Part shown: positions 16,217 to 17,937 of the stretch, in pieces
Layout of the letters: the number at the start of each line of letters is the position of its first letter
How positions within the stretch are numbered: position 1 is the first letter of the stretch
Assembly (NCBI RefSeq): GCF_001941625.1
Contig: NZ_CP016076.1
Coordinates: 2,232,001-2,296,000, forward strand
Length of the DNA stretch: 64,000 nucleotides
Reading direction: 5' to 3'
Source of the DNA: Actinoalloteichus fjordicus
GTDB lineage: Bacteria; Actinomycetota; Actinomycetes; Mycobacteriales; Pseudonocardiaceae
Made by a program: the position numbers and the translations under genes
Notes under the pieces: generated by a model
Seen by the model: the letters and a program-made list of their open reading frames with translations, nothing else
Told to the model about the DNA's origin: nothing
The model's database searches: none

Positions 16217-16906
16217 GTGACTGCGAACGGCCGGCGGCTGCAAGACCGGATCATCGATCTCATCATCGACAGTGGACTGACACCGGGCTCCCCGCTGCCC
16301 ACCGAGAACCAGCTCGTCGACGAACTCGGCGTGGGGCGCAACTCGGTGCGGGAGTCACTGCGGGCACTGAGCACCCTGGGCATCGTCGACATCAGGCACG
16401 GTTACGGCACCTTCGTGGGCGCGGCGCCGATCACCGCCTTCACTCCCGGCCTGCTGTTCCGCGCCCGCCAGTCGATGCGGCACGACGCCTCGGTGCTGCG
16501 GGATCTGATGGAGGTCCGGCGGGTCCTGGAGATGTCGCTGGTCGAGGCCGTGGTGGCCCGCGCCGACGAGGACCTGGTCGGCGAACTGGATGCGCTGGTG
16601 GCGGCGATGGAGTCCGGCGATCTCGTCGAGACCGATCAGCGGTTCCACGAGACGCTGTTCCGGCCGCTGGACAACGAGATCGCCCTGGAGCTGATCGGTC
16701 TGTTCTGGACGGTCTACCACCGCGTGGAGGCCGAACTCGACCCGCCGAGGCCCGGCCGCGCCGAGATCTGCCACGAGCATCGGACGATCGTCGAGGCCGT
16801 GCGGGCGGGCGATCCGGTCGCCGCCCGCGACGCCCTCGGCGCGCATTTCGTGGACATCGAGGAGCGGGTGGCGCGGTTGATCCGGCAGAGCGCGGACGCC
16901 GACTGA
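16217..16906 (+). CDS. GntR family (FadR subfamily) transcriptional regulator
   Basis: A 229-residue regulator with an N-terminal winged helix ([45 protein letters not shown], about residues 7-50, IRHGYGTFV wing) and a C-terminal FCD ligand-binding domain. The FCD region includes [25 protein letters not shown] and [11 protein letters not shown]; its His/Asp residues usually bind metal and the sugar acid. GTG 16217 is chosen because AGAGGGA precedes it by eight bases; an ATG at 16160 would overlap the operator. It most likely represses the divergent transporter-lyase operon through the palindrome at 16141-16171. Confidence 0.92.
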
Positions 16907-16973
16907 GTCCCTCGGGAGTCGGGGTGAGTCCGGGGTCAGGGCCGTGCGAACCACACTCCACTCGATCGATATC

Positions 16974-17002
16974 TTGCTCGAATCGAACTTGTGTTCGATA
17001 GT
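16974..17002 (+). promoter_or_regulatory. LexA-box promoter, apparently leaderless
   Basis: TTGCTC at 16974-16979 and GATAGT at 16997-17002 with a 17-base spacer. Inside it lies TCGAAC TTGT GTTCGA (16983-16998), a perfect match to the actinobacterial SOS box (TCGAAC-N4-GTTCGA). The box overlaps the -10, the ideal position for LexA repression. The expected transcription start is about 17009, which is the ATG of the next ORF. Confidence 0.8.
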
Positions 17003-17008
17003 CGTGTC

Positions 17009-17410
17009 ATGGTCATTCACACGTTCACCGCACTCGCCGTTCTCGCCGTTCTCACGGTGCTCGCCGCCCTGGTCAGGCGGCGCGATCACGCCCGCCTGGT
17101 GTTGCCGGGATCGACGATCGTGCCGGTGGTGCGCCCGGTCGGCGTCGCGCGGGCCGGCTCGACATCCCCTGTGCGGCACCCTCGAAGTCAGGCGCCGTCG
17201 ACGACTGCGCCCTCGGCTATCGGCGAGGTCGGGGTCGCGTCGGCCGGTGCGAGGTTGATCGCGCGGTGGATGTTCGCGCCGTGGTCCGCATCACCGCCGA
17301 TCGCTCGGCCGAGACCGGGTGCGCGTCCCGCATCCGTCCGCAGCCACGCAGCGTCTCCGTTCGCGCCCCGAGACGGGCCGGGCCGACGTCAGCTCGCGGG
17401 CTCGTCCTGA
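17009..17410 (+). CDS. Putative SOS-induced small membrane protein
   Basis: A 133-residue reading frame from ATG 17009. It begins with one hydrophobic segment (HTFTALAVLAVLTVLAALV) followed by RRRD, then a Pro/Ala/Arg-rich, probably disordered part. I recognise no family. Support comes from the LexA-box promoter just upstream, whose predicted start coincides with the ATG, and from GC-rich third positions in the first half. Its 3' end overlaps the lspA 3' end by 22 bases, tail to tail, which weakens the case for the full length. A short membrane protein under LexA control recalls SOS division inhibitors such as DivS or Rv2719c, but I see no homology and do not assign that role. Confidence 0.45.
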   Translation: MVIHTFTALAVLAVLTVLAALVRRRDHARLVLPGSTIVPVVRPVGVARAGSTSPVRHPRSQAPSTTAPSAIGEVGVASAGARLIARWMFAPWSASPPIARPRPGARPASVRSHAASPFAPRDGPGRRQLAGSS

Positions 17411-17937
17411 GGTTCCGGCCTGGTGGCGGGGCGGTACTCGGTCAGCAGCGTGACCAAAATCAGCAGGACGACGCCACAGGTCAGCAGCGCGTCGGCGATG
17501 TTGAACGTCGGGAACCAGCCGGTGTGCAGGTAGTCGGTGACCGCCCCGTCGTCGATGCGGTCGATGAGGTTCCCCGTTGCGCCTGCGAGGATCATGGCTA
17601 AGGCCAGCCGCGCCGAGTTCGGCACCTCGGGAGCCGTGCGCCACGCATAGACGGCGATGCCCAGCGTCACCGCGCCGGTGACGGCGATGACCACCCACGC
17701 AGGCAGCGAGGCGCCCATGCTGAAGGAGATGCCGGGGTTGTAGGCCAGCCGCATGCTGAGGATGCCGAGATCGGGACCGGCCGGGTGGGCTTGCTCGACG
17801 AGGTGCTTGACGAAGAGGTCGATCGCGGCCAGCGTCGCCGCGATCGCAGCGATCACCAGACGGACACGGGCGGGCCGGACCACCGTCTCGGCGGCGGGGG
17901 CGGATGCGGCGGTGGTCACCCGAGGGACTTTACCCAT
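17389..17937 (-). CDS. lspA: Lipoprotein signal peptidase (signal peptidase II)
   Basis: Membrane aspartyl protease that removes signal peptides from lipoproteins after Lgt has acted. The 182-residue protein has four membrane segments and the conserved motifs AIDLFVKH, YNPGISFSM, AGATGNLIDRI and FNIADALL, the last two carrying the catalytic Asp pair. The N-terminus extends about 25 residues before the first helix. It stands alone here; in many actinomycetes the neighbour would be rluD, which is absent. The downstream tail overlaps a putative ORF on the other strand. Confidence 0.95.
   Translation of the reverse strand: MGKVPRVTTAASAPAAETVVRPARVRLVIAAIAATLAAIDLFVKHLVEQAHPAGPDLGILSMRLAYNPGISFSMGASLPAWVVIAVTGAVTLGIAVYAWRTAPEVPNSARLALAMILAGATGNLIDRIDDGAVTDYLHTGWFPTFNIADALLTCGVVLLILVTLLTEYRPATRPEPQDEPAS

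Follow-up and report, generated by a model that had tools for sequence, protein, structure and literature searches.

The window analyzed here is a stretch of 64,000 nt from Actinoalloteichus fjordicus (contig NZ_CP016076.1, positions 2,232,001 to 2,296,000 of the forward strand). In its first third, a GntR/FCD regulator gene and a convergent lspA gene flank a putative LexA-controlled promoter, followed by an open reading frame (ORF) whose start codon lies on the predicted transcription start. The features are the following:

16220..16906, + strand: upstream neighbor, GntR/FCD regulator (Pfam GntR 4.8e-18, FCD 5.7e-24)
16957..16977, + strand: extended upstream motif TCCACTCGATCGATATCTTGC, spanning roughly -52 to -32, with hardly any variation in a 30-copy alignment
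16974..16979, + strand: weak -35 hexamer TTGCTC, read from the sequence, with TTGC at the same place in other copies
16983..16998, + strand: perfect LexA (SOS) box TCGAACTTGTGTTCGA, 0 mismatches, 2-nt overlap with the -10 hexamer
16997..17002, + strand: -10 hexamer GATAGT, with A-11 and T-7 invariant across the family
17009..17410, + strand: putative leaderless ORF, 133 aa, in frame 0, the stop-free frame common to other copies
17021..17074, + strand: predicted transmembrane (TM) helix, about residues 5-22, from hydropathy
17389..17937, - strand: convergent neighbor, lipoprotein signal peptidase lspA (Pfam Peptidase_A8 3.3e-29; TIGR00077)

A preliminary description of this locus reported TTGCTC-N17-GATAGT enclosing TCGAAC-N4-GTTCGA. 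This arrangement is exact and can be read directly from the sequence: 17 nt separate the two hexamers, and the box at 16983-16998 is the sole perfect LexA box within the window. The same description placed the predicted start base on ATG 17009. The coincidence is borne out, the ATG being located 6 nt 3' of the -10 hexamer, and it supports a predicted leaderless start. In the -35 hexamer, TTG alone matches the consensus, its TTGC being part of the extended upstream motif, and a generic sigma-70 scan does not call the window's forward promoter. Hence, the promoter and the leaderless reading are based on conservation across the copies described below and not on the weak single-site consensus; this comparative evidence is far stronger. 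Counted from an alternative GTG at 16991, the ORF would have 139 aa. The ORF and the oppositely oriented lspA gene overlap by 22 nt at their 3' ends. The lspA gene of the window is a second, divergent paralogue with close relatives in a few genomes only; the other LspA-like gene of this genome (G000) is found at G000:2174078 and is 36% identical to it.

The perfect sequence TCGAAC-N4-GTTCGA is present at 19 sites in G000 (7.12 Mb, one contig), vs. 2 sites for the reversed control pattern, and is thus found beyond chance. Identical perfect boxes are located upstream of lexA (LexA_DNA_bind 4.7e-28, Peptidase_S24), rmuC, sbcD, and imuA' (NCBIfam NF058630, 2.5e-50). This sequence is therefore the SOS box of the organism, and binding of LexA at the module box is likely. 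In S. venezuelae, the LexA motif is tCGAAC-N4-GNNCGa (PMC9380542). The present case shares the identical 16-bp box with the actinobacterial LexA regulon, and repair genes of G000 carry this box too. In contrast to that regulon, however, the box stands here within a longer fixed module that also comprises a conserved upstream motif of 20 nt and, at +1, a start codon, and the module is present in many copies without repair genes. Indeed, 9 of the 19 perfect boxes of G000, that of the window included, share this longer oriented module.

Thus, while the promoter anatomy first described holds, the view of a lone promoter feature does not: the module is multi-copy, a point that the first reading had overlooked. 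Its layout is TCCACYCGATCGATATCTTGC, N5, the LexA box, 10 nt, and ATG, with fixed spacing. G000 contains 10 exact occurrences of CGATCGATATCTTGC, all of them with a LexA-type box, the congener G002 contains 15, and the congener G001 one; other genomes of the family and of the order give scattered single near-matches only. A sequence model of the module was built from 30 aligned genus copies. At E<1e-13, it retrieves 10 copies in G000, 21 in G002, and 3 in G001, and below these matches there is a gap, followed by bare LexA boxes. No near-exact site of the upstream motif lacking the box is found in G000 or in five genomes of a second genus, and the module pattern has no match in genome_contigs or viral_contigs, two collections that may not include very close records.

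Fixed elements shared by the copies are TTGC in the -35, a spacer length of 17 nt, A and T at -11 and -7 of the -10, respectively, and a start codon at +1. The start codon is at the exact position in 28 of the 30 copies (27 ATG and 1 GTG), and the other two have ATG one base further. Two types are distinguished by the -10 sequence alone, the ORF not being looked at. Type I has GATAGT and accounts for 16/30 genus copies, including that of the window; type II mostly has GATCAT. In 15 of the 16 type I copies, the left half-site is TAGAAC, a weaker LexA match, the exception being the window's copy.

Similarity between copies usually extends over ~55-120 nt around the module, and up to ~185 nt in a few cases, with different flanking genes. 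Comparison of the copies for an insertion sequence or a MITE reveals no unit boundary. The neighbors are diverse housekeeping genes, unrelated to each other. A convergent gene is faced by 25 of the 30 copies (p=1.6e-4) and the strand of the upstream neighbor is random, which argues that the module drives a stand-alone unit and not the downstream gene. Some copies are antisense between otherwise adjacent genes (by eye, inhA-hemH and ftsX-smpB), and two places of this kind are compact and empty in G001. A syntenic G002 copy exists for 5 of the 10 G000 copies, that of the window not being among them. The preliminary description suggested a search for the ORF and the box upstream of lspA in relatives. 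Both are absent there in both congeners, and the promoter with a TM ORF is found elsewhere in these genomes; because the module is dispersed, absence at the lspA site is misleading as a refutation. The gntR-lspA interval is a short gap in G001 and contains a repeat array in G002, where about seven repeats with 61-nt spacing (GTGCTCTCCACACGCGTGGAGGTTGGTC; L017:1047-1440) read as a type I-E CRISPR.

Sites that are not shared between congeners would be expected if the copies were spreading or decaying promoter DNA, with functionless ORFs owing their translation to the pervasive use of any AUG-starting RNA. In M. tuberculosis, hundreds of leaderless ORFs are translated, most of them without signs of purifying selection (PMC9094748), and the lack of coding bias in the tail of the present ORFs (see below) also fits this explanation. 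It is nevertheless quite unlikely. The upstream promoter motif is nearly unchanged over 20 bp in the 30 copies, half of the G000 copies are kept in synteny, and the stop depletion and helix conservation presented below are frame-specific and look selected.

With regard to the product, the single N-terminal membrane helix proposed at the outset is predicted by hydropathy, with a 19-residue Kyte-Doolittle maximum of 2.27 at the N-terminus of the window's ORF, and RRRDHAR follows it. The protein was also said to be unknown and, indeed, it belongs to no recognizable family: neither LysM nor any other match is found in Pfam, NCBIfam, or PADLOC. By tblastn, no orthologue is detected in PLSDB plasmids or in genome_contigs, the latter with the same restriction on very close records. 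Among the type I copies, 14/16 have a TM-like segment in codons 1-34 of frame 0, as compared with 0/16 in each of frames 1 and 2; the expectation from composition shuffles averages 0.08, and open ATG windows have a base rate of 4.3%. Pairwise amino-acid identity in this N-terminal stretch is only 24%, so that hydrophobicity is kept while the sequence drifts. Type II copies, half of the family, have no helix. In one type I ORF, L085:1547-1650 (+), an in-frame tandem GCACTCACC repeat, (ALT)n, is located inside the membrane helix and suggests that length may change by slippage.

The LexA box and the N-terminal helix are also found in SOS division inhibitors of the YneA, ChiZ (Rv2719c), DivS, and SosA kind, and such a role had been suggested for the present ORF. 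This assignment is very improbable. The ORF has no LysM according to Pfam, is absent at the lspA site in congeners, and belongs to a multi-copy set with variable bodies. It is not beside lexA either, the lexA box being at G000:1927249 and the window's module at 2248983, about 320 kb apart. That place is already filled in G000 by L015:1544-2065 (+), which encodes a TM+LysM protein of the ChiZ/YneA type (PF01476, 1.5e-4), is divergent from lexA with a common perfect LexA box, and is the probable SOS division inhibitor of this organism.

A membrane toxin similar to TisB or DinQ may also be considered. Its helix would depolarize the membrane and arrest growth, and it would be silenced by LexA and perhaps by an antisense RNA. 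In E. coli, the promoters of dinQ and tisB, which encode small single-helix proteins, likewise lie under an SOS box (PMC3567139); the multi-copy character of the module and the conservation of the helix in type I are in line with this. However, DinQ has 27 aa, whereas the frame here runs on for 106 or more codons, giving a long tail, and half of the copies lack the helix. The dinQ and tisB mRNAs are processed and leadered, whereas those of the dispersed module would be leaderless. No antisense RNA is seen, and no sigma-70-like promoter or terminator is found on either strand between 16800 and 17500 by a crude scan that also misses the forward promoter. A toxin of this sort appears quite improbable.

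A further property of the family concerns the region beyond the helix. Past codon 20 and up to the neighboring gene, 5 stops are found among 3434 codons of frame 0, as against 32, 26, 24, 35, and 33 in the other five frames. It is stop-free in 27 of the 30 copies (11-16 for the other frames), and 0 of 200,000 random frame choices among the six frames reach as few stops. Gene edges for these counts were defined with a home-made codon-usage caller, the errors of which are not expected to favor frame 0. In four held-out copies, frame 0 is open past the neighbor in all four cases. In the tail, GC content by codon position gives no sign of coding bias, and composition is equal to that of the other frames. 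Charge or composition of the tail as a selected property was rejected, frame 0 being the same as frames 1 and 2. Codon-usage scoring of the module ORFs is negative overall, a method that is uninformative for short hydrophobic peptides. At syntenic G000/G002 sites, most ORF bodies are unalignable, yet both stay open; in the pair L081/L207, which can be aligned, every indel has a length divisible by three. Stop-free frames with unconstrained composition and unalignable bodies thus indicate that selection appears to act on openness rather than on sequence. To our knowledge, few bacterial cases of selection against stop codons without visible sequence selection have been documented; with some 30 parallel copies, the family lends itself to a direct test.

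Stop avoidance may reflect either a protein tail of generic character or an antisense RNA that is translated. The latter is the main rival to the small-protein reading, and we consider it unlikely. A long SOS-induced RNA would extend into the 3' end of the convergent neighbor and interfere with it, stop-free translation serving only to shield the RNA from Rho and RNases. The predominance of convergent copies, with frame 0 usually running on into the antisense strand of the neighbor, would be accounted for in this way, and so would a tail without protein-level constraint. The antisense phase of frame 0 into convergent neighbors is distributed 14:7:4, favoring the codon-aligned, stop-poor phase, and the phase is retained in 4/5 syntenic pairs although the bodies are divergent. 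On the other hand, the neighbors are unrelated and are not conserved targets, and the conserved membrane helix of type I is left unexplained. The phase has changed in the syntenic pair L087/L208; strict phase conservation into the antisense neighbor was accordingly rejected.

On balance, we favor, with a probability of roughly 0.55, the reading of the window's feature as one copy of a dispersed LexA-controlled module that would start a leaderless small membrane protein. The designation as an SOS-inducible leaderless small membrane protein is supported, as a prediction. In the proposed mechanism, a housekeeping-sigma promoter with a 17-nt spacer would be repressed by LexA, through the box that covers the -10. 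Upon DNA damage, LexA would be cleaved and a stand-alone leaderless mRNA released, transcription beginning on the A of the start codon. In mycobacteria, efficient translation has been reported for RNAs with a 5' AUG (PMC9094748). The conserved motif of 20 nt that lies immediately 5' of the -35 is probably bound by a second factor, as its fixed character suggests a second regulator alongside LexA. The type I product would be a small protein inserted in the membrane via one N-terminal helix, with a C-terminal tail that is basic, of low complexity, stop-free, and otherwise almost unconstrained. Because the tail combines freedom from stops with so little other constraint, the functional part would likely consist of the promoter, the start, the membrane helix, and some length of generic tail. 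For the family as a whole, we tentatively propose genus-specific SOS promoters whose leaderless frames may be selected only for stop-freedom while their sequence turns over, as proto-genes or as translated antisense.

Taken singly, LexA boxes, leaderless genes, and SOS membrane peptides are nothing new. A literature search found no dispersed genus-specific family joining a LexA box, a leaderless start, and stop-depleted free-running frames. The novel leaderless ORFs of M. tuberculosis (PMC9094748) also have their start codon at the 5' end and little codon bias; here, in contrast, a single promoter module recurs, and stops are scarce in its frame throughout the copies. Since nearly half of the perfect LexA boxes of G000 belong to the family, a large share of the SOS response may go to unannotated, fast-changing leaderless proteins.

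Outside the genus, when the model was run against 390 genomes of the taxonomic family, full-length relatives were retrieved from a single further genus, g22; seven of the eight genomes checked again have 2-7 copies each, and the remaining one has none. The upstream half of the g22 variant reads ATCACYCGATCGTGATCTTGC, and in five g22 genomes all 0-1 mismatch forms of the upstream motif correspond to known copies. These copies are found at conserved places, before genes that, as read from the sequence, are priA-, response-regulator-, penicillin-binding-protein-, and M16-peptidase-like. At one and the same locus (L184, L187, L192), unannotated, orthologous, and putatively leaderless proteins of 249-335 aa are located under the module. 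They have conserved N-terminal RHRAPS-like and C-terminal GELxRWxDExxARL...W segments with a variable middle, and no Pfam match is found for L184 and L187. Their conserved ends argue that the module can start real, selected leaderless proteins. Before the priA-like gene (L159, L165, L168, L174, L188, L190), the module would start a leaderless leader peptide of 13-46 codons; it ends ...GLW-stop (TGGTAG) in several species and looks like a conserved regulatory leader. Finally, in several g22 species, two outward-facing copies, separated by ~4.4 kb, stand on either side of the same gene block (L175, L176, L177, L178).
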